A stretch of DNA of 64,000 nucleotides from Brevibacillus laterosporus (lineage in GTDB: Bacteria > Bacillota > Bacilli > Brevibacillales > Brevibacillaceae), in NCBI GenBank assembly GCA_007833815.1, contig CP033464.1:1078501-1142500 (forward strand), given 5' to 3'. The notes under the pieces are model-generated. The model saw nothing but the letters and a program-made list of their open reading frames with translations. It ran no database searches and had not been told where the DNA came from. The position numbers and the translations under genes were made by a program. The stretch's first letter is position 1; every line of letters starts with the position of its first letter. This document shows, in pieces, positions 1 through 48,901 of the stretch.

Positions 1-342
1 ATTATTTCAATGGTGAGTTTTATTGCTCTACGTATTTTTTCAAAGGGGTATCATGCAAAATCATTAACTACATGCTTTATTTTGACAACAGCGATCATAT
101 CATTGATTCCTCATGTTCCAATGCAAGATTATACGAGTGTTACTAATATATTAAACGTTTTTATGGTGCTATTTTTCGCACCAAATGGTAGCTTCGAGGG
201 AGAGGTAATCCCCCAGAAAAGAGTTTATTTACTAAAAGGAATTTCATTGATTATAGTCCTATCCAACTTTATTATCTCGTCGCATATTGTGGCTCTATCT
301 TTTTTTGCACAATCATTATTATTACTCCCTAAAAGGAGGTGA
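1..342 (+). CDS. AgrB-like peptide maturation protease, 3' part only
   Basis: The reading frame is open from base 1, so the N-terminal part of a roughly 190-residue AgrB lies outside the window. The visible part carries GYHAKSLTTC, matching the AgrB catalytic signature: a His and a Cys seven residues apart (H15 and C22 counted from the first Met at base 10). Several hydrophobic membrane segments follow. In the family this integral membrane cysteine endopeptidase trims the C-terminal tail of AgrD-type propeptides and cyclises the core. A candidate propeptide gene starts six bases downstream and a LytTR regulator follows. Family assignment rests on the His/Cys motif, hydrophobicity and neighbours. 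Confidence 0.8.
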   Translation: MISMVSFIALRIFSKGYHAKSLTTCFILTTAIISLIPHVPMQDYTSVTNILNVFMVLFFAPNGSFEGEVIPQKRVYLLKGISLIIVLSNFIISSHIVALSFFAQSLLLLPKRR

Positions 343-347
343 GGACA

Positions 348-467
348 ATGAATAAACAGTTCGCGAAAACAATTTCAAAGGGATTAGGCACTTTGGGTAA
401 GGTTTATACAAAGCTTGCCAAAGTTACAATCGGTAGCCCAGTTGTACCTAAAGAATTAAGAAAGTAA
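348..467 (+). CDS. AgrD-like signalling propeptide (39 aa), lacking cysteine
   Basis: Short ORF with an ideal ribosome binding site (AAAGGAGGTGAGGACA) and ATG, directly after the AgrB-like gene. The 39-residue product has a basic amphipathic N-terminal half and ends in PVVPKELRK, which resembles the conserved C-terminal tail of AgrD propeptides that AgrB removes (S. aureus has EVPKEL at this place). Unlike ordinary AgrD it contains no Cys at all, so the usual thiolactone cannot form. A Ser or Thr lactone, or a linear peptide, would have to be the product. Assignment is from context plus the tail motif; the mature peptide cannot be read from sequence. Confidence 0.72.
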   Translation: MNKQFAKTISKGLGTLGKVYTKLAKVTIGSPVVPKELRK

Positions 468-477
468 GAGTAGAGCT

Positions 478-846
478 ATGGGGAATTCGCCAAAGTTTTT
501 TGGAATAACGCCGTCAGGGAATAGAAGCGATAGATCAGCGTATGTAGAACTCTCAATAGATGACTTTAATTTCGTTAATCGGTATAACGATACAACCATT
601 GCATACAATACGAATAAAGGGTTATTCTTACCTGTGAACTCGTTGGAAGGTATGTTCATTTGTCTTGAAAAATACGGATTCACAAACTTAGACTCAACGA
701 ATGTCACAAATCTTAAAAATATAGAAAGTGTAGATGTTAGTCCATATGGGATCGGCGTCCACTTTCCAAACGGAATGCATACAACTGCATCTCGGATCAA
801 GTATAAACAATTTTTAAAAGACTTACCGAAAAGGCCACCTAAATAA
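478..846 (+). CDS. LytTR-domain DNA-binding regulator without receiver domain
   Basis: The 122-residue product consists essentially of one LytTR DNA-binding domain. The stretch TNLKNIESVDVSPYGIGVHF, then NGMHTTASR and the KQFLKDL end, follows the beta-strand pattern of AgrA/LytR C-terminal domains. No response-regulator receiver domain and no membrane sensor is attached, so signal input would have to come from elsewhere or by direct binding. It lies ten bases after the AgrD-like gene and ends in a rho-independent terminator, so agrB-agrD-lytTR looks like one transcript. Its ribosome binding site is weak (AGTAGAG), suggesting low expression or coupling. Confidence 0.75.
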   Translation: MGNSPKFFGITPSGNRSDRSAYVELSIDDFNFVNRYNDTTIAYNTNKGLFLPVNSLEGMFICLEKYGFTNLDSTNVTNLKNIESVDVSPYGIGVHFPNGMHTTASRIKYKQFLKDLPKRPPK

Positions 847-858
847 GGTGGTTTTTTT
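835..858 (+). terminator. Rho-independent terminator of the Agr-like cassette
   Basis: CCACCT - AAATA - AGGTGG followed by seven T. It overlaps the stop codon of the LytTR gene. Confidence 0.85.
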
Positions 859-1119
859 GTGTCTTTTATTCAATGTTTTAAGTGGGGTATTATACATCAG
901 GATAATGCAAAAGTAAAGTTAAATTGACCTAGGGGTCTATTGACACTTAACAATCGCAAGATTCGACAAAAAACTAACTTTTTAGATGGTACATTTTTTA
1001 AAGAAATAAAAATTCATTCATTATCACTTTAAATAAATTAAAATTACGAATCATTACTCAGCGTTCTATCTGTAAGAGCAAGAATATAGCGATTTTATTT
1101 TCTACTGGAGGTGCGTGTT

Positions 1120-1264: not shown

Positions 1265-1633
1265 CTAATTATCTATCTCTGATTTAAAGGCTTCTAGAAG
1301 CTCTTTTACTAAATGCTTTTTATTTGGAGGTAGGTTACGGATTAGATTGATAATATTTTTGTCTTCTTCAGAAAGAGTCGGGTCATTAATGGCAGAGATA
1401 AATGGATCAGTTATATCTGTACTGCATTTTTCATTAGTTCTTCCTAATAAGTAGTCAACAGAAACATTAAAGAAATCAGCTATTTTTTCTAATCGTTCAT
1501 GCCTTGGCAAACTTTGATCTGATGATTCTAATCTTCTGATTGTGGACTCGGGTATGTCTAAAGCTCTAGCTAATTCTTCTTGTGTTATCATTTTTTCTGC
1601 TCTTAATTCTTTTAAACGTTTTTTAAAAACCAT
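1265..1633 (-). CDS. CI-like XRE-family phage repressor
   Basis: N-terminal helix-turn-helix of the XRE type (residues about 5-60: KRLKELRAEKMITQEELARA, then SLPRHERLEKIADFF and SVDYLLGRT), followed by a short acidic C-terminal part of about 55 residues. There is no LexA-type peptidase domain. Two starts are possible; I chose the inner ATG (MVFKKR) because a TATAAT box on the minus strand at 1660-1665 would leave only a few leader bases for the outer ATG at 1648. It is divergent from the Cro-like gene across three 17-bp operators. Likely role: lysogeny repressor. Induction would need something other than RecA-driven self-cleavage. Confidence 0.85.
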   Translation of the reverse strand: MVFKKRLKELRAEKMITQEELARALDIPESTIRRLESSDQSLPRHERLEKIADFFNVSVDYLLGRTNEKCSTDITDPFISAINDPTLSEEDKNIINLIRNLPPNKKHLVKELLEAFKSEIDN

Positions 1634-1659
1634 CGATATCACGCTCATTTCTTGACTTG

Positions 1660-1742
1660 ATTATACACAAAAACGCTCATTTAATAAACGTTCAATAATT
1701 GAACGGAAAGTTGTTGACACGCTCATAATTTGAACGTATACT
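1660..1742. promoter_or_regulatory. Divergent immunity promoters with three 17-bp operators
   Basis: Three related 17-mers with dyad symmetry are visible: 1674-1690 (CGCTCATTTAATAAACG), 1689-1705 (CGTTCAATAATTGAACG, a perfect palindrome) and 1720-1736 (CGCTCATAATTTGAACG). The rightward promoter is TTGACA at 1714-1719 and TATACT at 1737-1742. Its 17-bp spacer is exactly the third operator, so repressor binding there would exclude RNA polymerase. The leftward promoter has TATAAT at 1660-1665 with a poor -35, as expected for a repressor-maintenance promoter. Confidence 0.85.
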
Positions 1743-1783
1743 AGCATTGTAAAGTTCATTAAACGAGCTAAAGGAGGTTGAAC

Positions 1784-18754: not shown

Positions 18755-20128
18755 TTGGATATTCGATTGTTACCCATCGATAAAATTAACCCAGCTCCAT
18801 ATAATCCGCGTGTCGATCTACAACCAGGGGATGCGGAATACGAGAAGTTAAAGCGCTCCATTGAGGATTTCGGCTATGTGGAGCCTTTAGTGTGGAATCA
18901 GCGAACAGGGAATCTAGTAGGAGGCCACCAACGCTATAAAATCTTAGTCAACGAGCAGGGACGAAGAGAAGTAGAGGTTTCCGTTGTTGATCTTGATGAG
19001 CAAAAAGAAAAGGCTCTCAATATAGCAATGAATAAAATTAGCGGAGATTGGGACGAAGAAAAGCTATCACTTTTGATAGAAGAATTAGCGGCTAGTGATT
19101 TCAATATGGAATTAACAGGATTTGATTCTGAGGAAATAGACGAGTTATTAAAAGACTATAGCAATGATTACACGGATTTAAGTAATGACTTGGATTCTTC
19201 AGAAGGAGAGAGAAAAACATTATTCGATAAGTTCTTAATCCCTCCCTTTTCTGTATTAGATACAAGGCAAGGATACTGGCAGGACAGGAAAAGGCAATGG
19301 TTAAGTTTAGGGATGGAAAGTAAAGAGGGAAGAGACAGCAACCTTATTTACAATTTGGGAAATCAATCGGAATATATGCGTAAAGCTATGGAACAGTGTG
19401 GTGGCGGTACAAGTATTTTCGATCCAGTGCTTTGTGAGTTAATCTATCGCTGGTTTTGCCCAAACTCAGGTCAAATTTTAGACCCATTTGCAGGCGGATC
19501 AGTCAGAGGGGTTGTAGCATCATACCTGGGTTATCAGTATACTGGCATAGACCTGCGACCGGAGCAAATAGAATCAAATATAAAGCAGGCTAACGAGATG
19601 ATTACTAGAGGCATATTGCAAGAAGTTCCAGAGTGGATTGTTGGAGATTCTAGGAACATAAATCAGCTAGTGGAACAAGCTAAAGCAGATCTGATATTCA
19701 GTTGCCCTCCATATGCTGACTTGGAAGTATATTCGGATAATCCCGCAGATATCTCGAACATGAACTATGATGATTTCCTGAGATCATACAGAGAGATCAT
19801 TTTAAACGCTGTGTCGATGTTAAAGGATAACCGATTTGCTTGTTTTGTTGTAGGAGATATCAGGGATAGAAAGGGAATCTATCGGAACTTTGTATCTCAC
19901 ACGATCCAGGCGTTTATAGATGCTGGAATGCAATACTACAACGAAGGAATATTGATAAACGTTGTTGGTACAGTGGCATTACGGGCTGGAAGGCAGTTTG
20001 CTGCTAGTAGGAAGTTAGGCAAGTGTCACCAGAACGTTCTAGTATTTTACAAAGGGAATCCGCGAGATATTACATCAGAATTAGGTAGTGTAGATATAGA
20101 GGATAGTTTGCTCGAAAAATTAGCGTAA
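18755..20128 (+). CDS. ParB-like nuclease domain fused to DNA methyltransferase
   Basis: 457 residues from TTG 18755 (AAGGAGGACATACA). The N-terminal 130 residues are a ParB/Srx-like domain (IDKINPAPYNPRVD, then RSIEDFGYVEPLVW and LVGGHQRYKIL). The C-terminal part is an N4/N6-amino methyltransferase of beta order: SCPPYADLE is the catalytic motif IV and DPFAGGSVRGVVASYLG with YTGIDL is motif I. Such fusions are common in phages just before the terminase genes and probably modify phage DNA. It is the third methyltransferase of this prophage. Confidence 0.9.
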   Translation: MDIRLLPIDKINPAPYNPRVDLQPGDAEYEKLKRSIEDFGYVEPLVWNQRTGNLVGGHQRYKILVNEQGRREVEVSVVDLDEQKEKALNIAMNKISGDWDEEKLSLLIEELAASDFNMELTGFDSEEIDELLKDYSNDYTDLSNDLDSSEGERKTLFDKFLIPPFSVLDTRQGYWQDRKRQWLSLGMESKEGRDSNLIYNLGNQSEYMRKAMEQCGGGTSIFDPVLCELIYRWFCPNSGQILDPFAGGSVRGVVASYLGYQYTGIDLRPEQIESNIKQANEMITRGILQEVPEWIVGDSRNINQLVEQAKADLIFSCPPYADLEVYSDNPADISNMNYDDFLRSYREIILNAVSMLKDNRFACFVVGDIRDRKGIYRNFVSHTIQAFIDAGMQYYNEGILINVVGTVALRAGRQFAASRKLGKCHQNVLVFYKGNPRDITSELGSVDIEDSLLEKLA

Positions 20129-44918: not shown

Positions 44919-46532
44919 CTAGTGGTTAGGCGTTGCTCCCTTTGTGTTTTTTAAAATATCGTATAATAGCATAAGCCGACGAAGCTCGGTTAAAATTGTA
45001 TTAGCTCCATCACTTTTTAATTCTTTAAGTTCAGAAATTATAAAGTCTTTAATCTCCTCCAGATCTAATTGTTTAATATTGTAGGAAAGAGTCGCATATA
45101 TTTTTTCCTTTTTTTTATCTGATTGTATTATTTTTTTTACAGTTTTAGCGTTCCGATTAATAACATTTGATTTATTTATCTTGTTGAATTGAATATCAAA
45201 ATTATCTACTATACCAATTTTTTGTTTCAATTTCTCCTTATCCGAAGGATGAAGATTGCTTTTTTCCATTAATTTACTATCTAATAACTTACAAATTGGT
45301 ATTCTCGATCTAGGATTTTGAGTTGCTGCAAATTTCATTTTTATGTCAAGACTCATCATATCTGATTCAGAAATATAATCTAATGAATAACTGATTATAT
45401 CAGGACTTTGATAGATATATGTAGAGTCACCTAATGCTACAGCGATTTTTTTGTCTTTTAAAGTATCTTCTAAAGAATCCAAATCACTAGTAGAAGTTAA
45501 AACGGTGTTTAGTTCTCCTTCTCTTCCTCTATCAACTATAAGTTTTTTTAAAATATGTTGATATTTTCTTATACCAGATGGAGCTACGCCTTGATCAATG
45601 GCTCCTATTGTTTTAAAGATTTTTTCGAAATTATCGGTTTTAATTAATTTTATTTTACATCCTAAATCTTTATCGTTAATTGCTTCTTCTATTATGTTTT
45701 TCTCATCTTTTAACCATTCGATTAAAATAAGTCGATCTTCAAGTAATATGATTTCTTCTTCAGTTAACGAACGGGTGAAGTCCTTTATTATCTTTCTAAT
45801 GTTTAAATCAGTAAGGGAATAGCCTATAAAAATGATTGGAGAATGAATCATCATTGAAATGATTTTTGCACTAATCAAAACTGAATTTTTTTCGAAATTA
45901 TTATAATCATTTTCAGAAATAATTATATCACTAGGGCAATCTACTGAGCCATGCAACTTATATAATTCAGCATAACCTAAGGTTTGTTTAAAAAAACCCT
46001 TTTGACCAATATATTTATCTATTTTGTATTGACTAATCTCGTTATAAGACTGCTCTACAAAACTATCATAATTTGTTGTCAAAATGATTTGTGCTTTTAA
46101 TAGCATTTTTTGAAAAAATCTATATTCTTCTAGCATAGTATCTTTTAATTGATATTCACTAAATTTTGAAGCGATTGCTTTTTTTAATGGTTGAATTTTA
46201 GTTTTATAAGCATCTTTAGGTGTGAAATCTGCTATAGATATTTTACCTTCATTAAAAGCTTTATTATATTTCTCTTCAATAAGAGTACCCATTTTGATAT
46301 TTGTATAAAAATCAATTTCTTTTACATTATAAGATGGATTTTCTTTTTCAATGCTATCCCTTAAATTATTTAATTCCCCATAAAAATTCTGAAGTCCCAT
46401 TTCTAACCAAAAACTCTCTAGTAAACTTGTCCAGTCTGGGTAATTTAATAAAAAACGTTTTGATATACCAGAACCAATAAAAATTATCGGAAATTCATTA
46501 TCAATTTTTAACTTATCTAGTGTATTTTGCAT
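44919..46532 (-). CDS. SIR2-domain protein, probable anti-phage defence cargo
   Basis: 537 residues; ATG 46532 (MQNTLDKL) has TGGAGGTGTATAAA upstream. The N-terminal SIR2-like domain (about 10-250) shows FIGSGISKRF (NAD-binding), ILTTNYDSF (Asn), KLHGSVD (catalytic His) and FIGYSLTDLN. The C-terminal 280 residues match nothing I know. In the family, such proteins deplete NAD+ on phage infection (DSR, Thoeris ThsA and related). The gene is very AT-rich compared with the phage genes and transcribed against them, as expected for acquired lysogeny cargo. No adjacent TIR, Argonaute or HerA partner is visible, so it may act alone. Confidence 0.8.
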   Translation of the reverse strand: MQNTLDKLKIDNEFPIIFIGSGISKRFLLNYPDWTSLLESFWLEMGLQNFYGELNNLRDSIEKENPSYNVKEIDFYTNIKMGTLIEEKYNKAFNEGKISIADFTPKDAYKTKIQPLKKAIASKFSEYQLKDTMLEEYRFFQKMLLKAQIILTTNYDSFVEQSYNEISQYKIDKYIGQKGFFKQTLGYAELYKLHGSVDCPSDIIISENDYNNFEKNSVLISAKIISMMIHSPIIFIGYSLTDLNIRKIIKDFTRSLTEEEIILLEDRLILIEWLKDEKNIIEEAINDKDLGCKIKLIKTDNFEKIFKTIGAIDQGVAPSGIRKYQHILKKLIVDRGREGELNTVLTSTSDLDSLEDTLKDKKIAVALGDSTYIYQSPDIISYSLDYISESDMMSLDIKMKFAATQNPRSRIPICKLLDSKLMEKSNLHPSDKEKLKQKIGIVDNFDIQFNKINKSNVINRNAKTVKKIIQSDKKKEKIYATLSYNIKQLDLEEIKDFIISELKELKSDGANTILTELRRLMLLYDILKNTKGATPNH

Positions 46533-46713
46533 TTTATACACCTCCATTTAATAATAAGATACCACATTATTCCATAAATGTTTAAACATAATTTTCGTAG
46601 AGACTTGACAATCATCTTCGCAACCATTTCACCTATTTTCGTGTATTTTTGCAACCAAATTTACAAAAAGTCCTCCTGCTACATTTTAAGAAGGACCAAG
46701 TACAATCCTGATT

Positions 46714-48686: not shown

Positions 48687-48700
48687 GATGAAACAAAAAG

Positions 48701-48901
48701 ATGTTTTTTATTTTTCTAGCTTGTGTAATGGTACTTGGTATCGGAGTATCGTCTTATGGTAACGAATTAAGTCCATCTGCCACGAATGCTTCTAAACGAA
48801 TTGACGATTCTGTTTCTTCACTGAATTACGATACTGGTAATCAAGTAATTAGGTTTCAAATGCAAAATGGAACCTCATACTCTTCTGCACCACGTAATTA
48901 A
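48701..48901 (+). CDS. Small single-pass membrane protein (66 aa)
   Basis: ATG at 48701, poor ribosome binding site. Hydrophobic N terminus (MFFIFLACVMVLGIGVSSYG) and a Ser/Asn-rich exported part. Unknown; first of six consecutive small genes with the same layout of an N-terminal anchor and short extracellular domain. Confidence 0.45.
   Translation: MFFIFLACVMVLGIGVSSYGNELSPSATNASKRIDDSVSSLNYDTGNQVIRFQMQNGTSYSSAPRN

Follow-up and report, generated by a model that had tools for sequence, protein, structure and literature searches.

The 64-kb stretch of Brevibacillus laterosporus DNA analysed here (the window) opens within a compact cassette which, once the locus is extended leftwards (L016), comprises four genes encoding, in order, a receptor-like membrane protein, AgrB, a 39-aa peptide and a LytTR regulator without a receiver domain. 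Across the whole locus, an integrase gene on the minus strand is followed by the cassette genes on the plus strand, a terminator and a CI-like repressor gene on the minus strand (Table 1). The first-pass annotation of the window had described an Agr-like triad, consisting of the end of an AgrB-like protease, a 39-residue propeptide and a receiver-less LytTR protein. All three genes are real, but the unit has four members, the first being the kinase-less, receptor-like membrane protein. Besides this gene, the extension, which the annotation had recommended, yielded the rest of agrB, starting 171 bases left of window base 1, and the integrase, but no kinase. The transcript end that had been placed near 835-858 coincides with a terminator-like stem-loop.

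Table 1. Features of the cassette and of the surrounding prophage. Coordinates refer to the window unless L016 is named.
Feature	Coordinates	Strand	Remarks
Membrane-protein gene (first gene)	L016 17169-17837, left of window	+	222 aa; 3' end overlaps agrB by 8 bases
agrB-like gene, 3' part	1..342	+	Full gene L016 17830-18342, 170 aa
agrD-like propeptide, without Cys	348..467	+	39 aa; ATG at 348, after AAAAGGAGGTGAGG
LytTR DNA-binding regulator without receiver	478..846	+	122 aa; weak Pfam LytTR match, E 0.0063
Terminator-like stem-loop closing the operon	827..859 (L016 18827-18859)	+	From sequence
CI-like XRE repressor, convergent with the cassette	1265..1648	-	HTH_3, E 2.1e-15; homologues at the same place in other phages
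Operator-like repeats, ACGTTCAATAATTGAACG type	1641..1765	.	Between the divergent repressor and 1778 genes; not of LytTR type
Candidate right att core, 17 bp	48698..48714	.	Copy at L016 15636-15652, beside the integrase

The full-length AgrB matches the corresponding Pfam family (E 3.4e-19) as well as PHROG phrog_10353. The His and Cys residues noticed earlier, seven residues apart, correspond to the catalytic dyad His75/Cys82, an agr hallmark present in all 174 aligned AgrB proteins of at least 140 aa. The propeptide ends in PVVPKELRK and thus has the PxEL-type tail of agr precursors. The PHROGs collection contains one family for each of the four cassette proteins. Wherever computable between the window copy and its close relatives, dN/dS ranges from 0.04 to 0.33 across the four genes, namely, 0.07-0.14 for the membrane protein, 0.15-0.33 for AgrB and 0.04-0.14 for LytTR (one of ten pairs saturated) in comparisons among the window, phages Davies and Emery and loci L058 and L059, and 0.05-0.21 for the peptide ORF (at most 39 codons, compared for the window, Davies and Emery alone). 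The ratios are rough, with synonymous distances near or above 1 in many cases. Low dN/dS values of this kind indicate that the cassette did not arise by chance, and we consider a role in peptide signalling of some kind very likely.

The cassette is prophage DNA because an integrase lies to its left and a repressor to its right, which settles a question that the first-pass annotation had left undecided; phages with other integrases keep the cassette in the same place. The divergent gene left of the membrane-protein gene encodes a tyrosine integrase (Pfam Phage_integrase, E 5.8e-26), whereas on the opposite side, the repressor ORF ends 419 bases beyond the end of the LytTR ORF, so that the cassette indeed adjoins the immunity region. 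Comparison of the 400 bases around the integrase end (L016 15381-15780) with the sequence from window position 20001 through the right flank (L021) returned a longest exact match of 17 bp, the next best being 12 bp; att sites inferred from this single repeat would put the prophage length at about 51 kb. No tRNA that could serve as the att site was found near the integrase in L016. Farther left, the flank includes a TadE-like gene recognized by Pfam (L016 6533) and other genes of pilus or secretion type identified by eye. An ordinary host agr locus on the left, which the first-pass annotation had raised along with a small ORF free of purifying selection as the alternatives to its reading, is ruled out, given that the flank consists of the kinase-less membrane protein, the integrase and then the pilus/secretion-type genes; the small ORF is under purifying selection. 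Near the right end of the prophage, a 542-aa SIR2-domain protein (window 44919-46547, minus strand; Pfam SIR2_2), with PDC-S25 as the best PADLOC match (E 1.1e-195), is a candidate defence gene.

Searches with the membrane protein returned matches in eight phage records, five of them from the B. laterosporus phages Davies, Emery and Abouo and three from the Paenibacillus larvae phages Harrison and Paisley, and in two plasmid records. The order membrane protein, AgrB, small ORF and LytTR is present in all six elements inspected (Davies, Emery, Abouo, Harrison and both plasmids), where LytTR was identified by alignment to the window copy and, for Harrison and the plasmids, also by Pfam; the search of related phages suggested in the first-pass annotation thus recovered the same genes in the same order. 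This order recurs in other viral contigs and in many Paenibacillus and Brevibacillus genomes. Early viral scans yielded two, zero and one loci, and a scan with the Paenibacillus profile yielded no loci. Matches to the membrane-protein profile were found in 37 of the 399 genomes of the class, including that of the host. In one Paenibacillus-like genus, 85 of 100 genomes gave a match, and in one Brevibacillus-like genus, 13 of 26. Nearly all of 44 named relative loci are listed as Paenibacillus or Paenibacillaceae. Related cassettes thus occur on plasmids and in many host genomes (phage genes were mapped around a minority only), and these host-genome relatives show that the module needs no phage.

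The host genome itself contains six AgrB genes, four of which are accompanied by a membrane protein, a peptide and LytTR. At another locus (L017, 15460 onward), the membrane protein, AgrB and peptide are followed by only a short LytTR-like piece, seen by eye. About 7 kb from this fuller copy lies a decayed cassette (L017 8455-9325), in which the membrane-protein gene is split by a stop codon and AgrB is shortened, with no peptide seen. Davies (L022 5265-6669), Emery (L023 5268-6669) and L059 (6998-8405) each have two tandem copies of the membrane-protein gene that are well diverged from each other, so that a single peptide is accompanied by two receptors. A bSEFIR-type defence protein (L018 8058-9491, minus strand; PADLOC E 8.8e-107) is encoded immediately upstream of the chromosomal cassette at C4:4471 kb.

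The most distinctive feature of the family lies in the peptide. Among 192 AgrB ORFs (184 different), a peptide could be called beside 175, using a filter that required the tail motif but not Lys or Ser (a PxAL tail was allowed only for L064 and L065, a rule made after both had been seen). The register was anchored on the Leu of the PxEL tail with the spacing of Staphylococcus aureus AgrD, in which Met32 is the last signal residue, Leu41 a tail residue and Cys28 the ring residue (PMC10482373); position -1 accordingly lies nine residues before the Leu, matching Met32/Leu41 with Cys28 at -5. In this register, 89 peptides carry Ser or Cys at -5, 85 carry Lys at -4, one (L126, Cys-Lys) carries both and none carries neither; counted as distinct 21-residue stretches, there are 63 with Ser/Cys, 76 with Lys and one with both. 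Nine AgrB ORFs remained without a called peptide: inspection by eye revealed the Ser form, with the tail cut short, beside five (L093, L098, L099, L214 and L244), and no peptide could be made out in the stretch adjoining the other four (L187, L213, L227 and the decayed L017 copy). A second set, fetched with Lys-type queries and hence a test of the Lys clade rather than of the two-way split, had Lys in all 19 new cassettes with a called peptide (12 distinct 18-residue stretches); a twentieth, at a contig end (L304), reads Cys-Lys by eye and has an unusual tail. Thinning of the 194 peptides to less than 50% identity, with the two columns themselves disregarded, left 16, seven with Lys, nine with Ser/Cys and none with neither. 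The either-or rule fits 194 of 194 peptides at the predicted register, compared to between 1 and 124 at twelve shifted ones, the best of which owes its score largely to the common Ser of the tail. The two precursors with Cys at -5 plus Lys at -4, CKLTL in L126 (first cassette) and CKEVI in L304, are possible intermediates or dual-ring peptides.

The window peptide has Ala at the place of the thiolactone-forming Cys or Ser (i-4 of the mature peptide) and Lys at -4 relative to the predicted AgrB cut, which would fall after KVTI and before GSPVVPKELRK. The first-pass annotation had singled out the missing Cys as a departure from agr; the Cys is indeed absent, but this is no oddity of one copy, being instead the rule of a whole clade with a Lys one residue further on. 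Accordingly, loss of the Cys through decay of a single copy is ruled out, as the Lys peptides form a clade under selection. The one Ser-type peptide tried was recognized by the NCBIfam AgrD model, but the four Lys-type peptides tried were not; the lysine rule makes peptides of the latter type findable.

Two phylogenetic trees, one for the membrane protein (172 rows) and the other for AgrB (174 rows), both built with a quick method and containing many long branches, each imply a single change between Lys and non-Lys, with SH-aLRT values of 86 and 92, respectively. In the AgrB tree, one branch separates the 86 sequences with Lys from the 88 without it, with zero exceptions, and Lys has been lost in no member of the clade so defined. 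The Ser-to-Lys switch, as reconstructed on these trees, is one old event and not repeated evidence, so the complementarity of Lys versus Ser/Cys amounts to one evolutionary observation. The Lys class of AgrB is further distinguished by Tyr29, Gly48, Pro94 and Asn119, which may reflect lineage only.

The position of the Lys acquires meaning from ring geometry. The native staphylococcal autoinducing peptide (AIP) has a ring of five residues and 16 atoms, and AgrC tolerates no other ring size (PMC10482373). A Cys thioester over C-x-x-x-Phi closes 16 atoms (4+3+3+3+3), and so would a Lys side-chain amide over K-x-x-Phi (7+3+3+3). Based on the lysine rule and this equality of ring size, we propose that the mature signal is a lysine-lactam pheromone, for which we judge the odds to be about even. 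An amine could accept the acyl group from the AgrB acyl-enzyme, and the lactam so formed would surpass a thiolactone in stability. Against this proposal, lactam versions of S. aureus AIPs perform poorly as agonists (PMC10482373), although a lactam is functional in Listeria.

Alternatively, the Lys could be conserved because AgrB or the receptor recognizes it. Under this main rival to the lactam, AgrB would act as a plain protease, water would resolve the acyl-enzyme and the signal would be a linear peptide ending in KVTI or similar, which is a real but lesser prospect. In its favour, 85 of the 86 Lys-bearing peptides have neither Ser nor Cys at the ring position (the remaining one has Cys beside Lys), and the single Lys/Ser switch on the trees leaves room for the Lys to have arrived with a new receptor class. 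Moreover, linear forms are known to arise from thiolactones by hydrolysis (PMC10482373). Against a linear signal, the other core columns of Lys-type peptides vary (entropies of 1.8 to 2.9 bits after thinning to less than 50% identity), whereas the Lys is never lost in the clade and is placed where the ring stays at 16 atoms. Residues that contact a receptor normally diverge.

If AgrB and the peptide tie the cassette to agr, the other two proteins set it apart, for neither the AgrC histidine kinase nor the AgrA regulator with receiver and LytTR domains is present: the 222-aa protein has no kinase domain, and the regulator consists of LytTR only. The membrane protein matched no Pfam or NCBIfam family, and its profile retrieved nothing at E 1 from PDB sequences. 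An AlphaFold2 model of the homologue from the viral contig L143 (91% identical; 42-row alignment) displays seven long helices (pLDDT 85.1, pTM 0.84). The window LytTR protein falls below the Pfam cut-off, but homologues from L002, L025 and L027 pass it (E 5e-9 to 2e-5), the family profile matches the LytTR chains of S. aureus AgrA (E 8.5e-6), and an AlphaFold2 model of the regulator is beta-rich (pLDDT 87.3, pTM 0.68). LytTR lies downstream in 83 of 85 Lys-type cassettes, the exceptions being L110 and L133, the latter in an assembly containing N letters. Among cassettes of the non-Lys type, the profile detected LytTR in 44 of 89; among the other 45, inspection by eye reveals a diverged LytTR-like ORF in several and none in others. 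Harrison gp41 (L025 7297-7653) and PHROG phrog_15081 are LytTR regulators mislabelled as dipeptidyl aminopeptidase or 'peptidase'.

Lys-type membrane proteins do not exceed 257 aa, and the accompanying regulators are either single (108-132 aa) or about 240 aa long. The longer ones (L026 6322-7062 and L111-L116) resemble tandem LytTR domains, the two halves of the L113 protein matching each other at E 3e-13, and look like a built-in dimer. In the Ser-type L080, a short membrane protein exceptionally occurs with a receiver-LytTR regulator. In L106-L109, homologues of 406-450 aa with an extra C-terminal part adjoin AgrB, and a receiver-LytTR gene lies next to L108 and L109 (by Pfam) and L107 (by eye), with none found for L106. 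These proteins do not qualify as full AgrC kinases, given that the C-terminal parts of L106, L108 and L109 match no Pfam kinase family, and are AgrC-like in layout only.

No HATPase_c_5 domain is encoded beside the cassette, in line with the first-pass annotation, which saw no kinase, and none came to light in the extended left flank. Because both kinase and receiver are missing, signalling probably bypasses phosphorylation, by analogy with the LytTR Regulatory Systems. The simplest reading is that the membrane protein acts directly on the LytTR regulator, as HdrM and BrsM act on theirs as membrane inhibitors (PMC6193735), and we regard such direct control as somewhat favoured by this analogy. 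It is improbable, in our view, that the membrane protein instead pairs up in trans with a histidine kinase of the host, or blocks host agr-type sensors, LytTR being controlled in some other way. The host genome does contain 20 HATPase_c_5 matches and five other AgrB genes, so cross-talk is conceivable, but none of the 20 lies beside any of the six AgrB genes. Furthermore, a LytTR protein without a receiver cannot accept phosphate, and the membrane proteins and regulators of Lys-type cassettes keep within the sizes given above.

A possible link between the cassette and lysogeny, raised in the first-pass annotation, fits the position of the cassette, which is encoded on a temperate phage beside lysogeny genes. 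In a survey of 22 loci with integrase and repressor protein queries, the layout of the window prophage, with the cassette flanked by a recombinase on one side and an XRE repressor on the other, recurred in L143, L297/L058, L298/Abouo, Davies and Emery. L143 encodes a large serine recombinase and a repressor 98% identical to that of the window. L063 and the second L017 cassette resemble this layout, and Harrison has a serine recombinase on the far side. In L300-L303, a repressor is present and these queries found no recombinase in the stretch examined; L299 gave only a more distant repressor match. In L019, L020 and L060-L062, which lack a recombinase match, a convergent XRE gene lies beyond LytTR, and with the same queries neither recombinase nor repressor was matched in L304, L059 and L018. 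On the strength of its place between integrase and repressor, a role of the cassette in lysogeny is plausible, if a little short of even odds.

The annotation had also proposed looking for LytTR direct-repeat sites, but none were found upstream of the window operon (L016 16880-17180) or in the immunity region, where the repeats are of the repressor type only. Across Lys-type upstream regions, repeat pairs at spacings of 19-24 numbered 46, compared to about 29 per mononucleotide shuffle (144 over five shuffles); this excess is spread over spacings and falls in related sequences, and is therefore not convincing as LytTR-type direct repeats. The commonest 8-mers, which come from the promoter core or its vicinity, occur in at most 16 of 44 thinned upstream regions. 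Thirty-four Lys-type loci share a promoter core (TTGTTG, 17 bp and TATAAT in most), just upstream of which, next to the -35 box, a block AAGAAATATTTG..G.AAAGTGT is conserved; it is not clearly a repeat and represents a candidate LytTR site.

These results bear on whether the cassette is a mere passenger, that is, a host signalling unit acquired by phages and plasmids that serves lysogen physiology, or competition among elements, and leaves the lysis-lysogeny decision unaffected. This we entertain as a minority view. Relatives are common in hosts, as exemplified by the Paenibacillus-like genus with the membrane-protein family in 85 of 100 genomes, the cassette has its own terminator-like site, and no LytTR repeat was found near the repressor. 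Against this view, phages with different recombinases, tyrosine or large serine, keep the cassette between recombinase and repressor, and PHROGs holds families for all four proteins.

Taken together, the best explanation, to which we assign a probability of roughly 0.5, is that the locus is a prophage-borne signalling module of agr lineage that operates without a phosphorelay. This reading builds on what sequence comparison establishes, namely, the four-gene order, its conservation and the selection on it, the prophage position, the lysine rule and the lack of kinase and receiver. In the mechanism we propose, AgrB would use its His/Cys dyad to cut the propeptide tail after AKVTI, and the conserved Lys at -4 would attack the acyl-enzyme through its side chain in place of Cys or Ser, yielding a 16-atom lactam. 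The exported peptide would be sensed by the seven-helix membrane protein, comparable to the sensor half of AgrC-like proteins minus the kinase. In the manner of the membrane inhibitors known from LytTR Regulatory Systems, this protein would directly hold or release the receiver-less LytTR regulator. In this way, how dense related lysogens are could influence the phage decision or prophage gene expression. The full conjunction, in which AgrB of the Paenibacillus/Brevibacillus clade and its phages makes a new natural class of pheromone, a 16-atom Lys side-chain lactam, read by a kinase-less seven-helix receptor acting on a receiver-less LytTR regulator and serving as a phage density input at the integrase-repressor module, is put forward tentatively. 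If true, agr-type signalling can run without a phosphorelay, AgrB makes amide rings in addition to thioesters and esters, and a lactam, slow to hydrolyse, provides a stable signal. LytTR Regulatory Systems would gain a cognate ligand, and phage peptide communication a second chemistry, in phages that have already been isolated (Davies and Abouo).

Part of the phage cassettes had been seen before, in a note on Davies, Emery and Abouo by Hargreaves et al. (2014; PMC3901668) that, as far as available, does not mention the LytTR partner, the lysine or the family at large. The phage agr story is retold in a 2025 review (PMC11945551), two phage papers mention AgrB in a legend or table (PMC4909266, PMC4168068), and 'cyclic lactone autoinducer' clusters were reported in 2023 in most of the Brevibacillus isolates of one study (PMC9867215). 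In the portions seen of open-licence papers, which offer weak evidence of absence, we met no account of the LytTR partner of these cassettes or of a natural lysine or lactam agr peptide.

Comparison with known systems places the cassette at the intersection of several. With the staphylococcal agr system (AgrBDCA), it shares the AgrB His/Cys dyad seven residues apart, the leader/core/PxEL-tail organization of the propeptide with the same spacing, and a LytTR output domain homologous to that of AgrA; it differs in the lack of the kinase domain, the receiver domain and the Cys, in the Lys one residue nearer the cut and in the gene order, which is receptor-B-D-regulator. As in the Arbitrium system (AimP/AimR) of SPbeta-like phages, a peptide signal is encoded beside lysogeny genes, but Arbitrium relies on a cytoplasmic receptor and an imported linear peptide and has no AgrB, membrane receptor or LytTR. 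The LytTR Regulatory Systems (HdrRM and BrsRM), like the cassette, combine a receiver-less LytTR regulator and a kinase-less membrane protein in one operon, but there the regulator gene comes first, whereas here it is last, with the membrane protein first and AgrB and the peptide in between, and the direct repeats found in those systems just upstream of the operon -35 box (PMC6193735) were not found upstream of the window operon. The words 'ligand' and 'pheromone' are absent from the main text of that article, as far as available (PMC6193735). Finally, the Clostridium difficile phage phiCDHM1 similarly carries AgrB and AgrD on a temperate phage genome, but pairs them with an AgrC that has a HATPase domain and with no regulator (PMC3901668).
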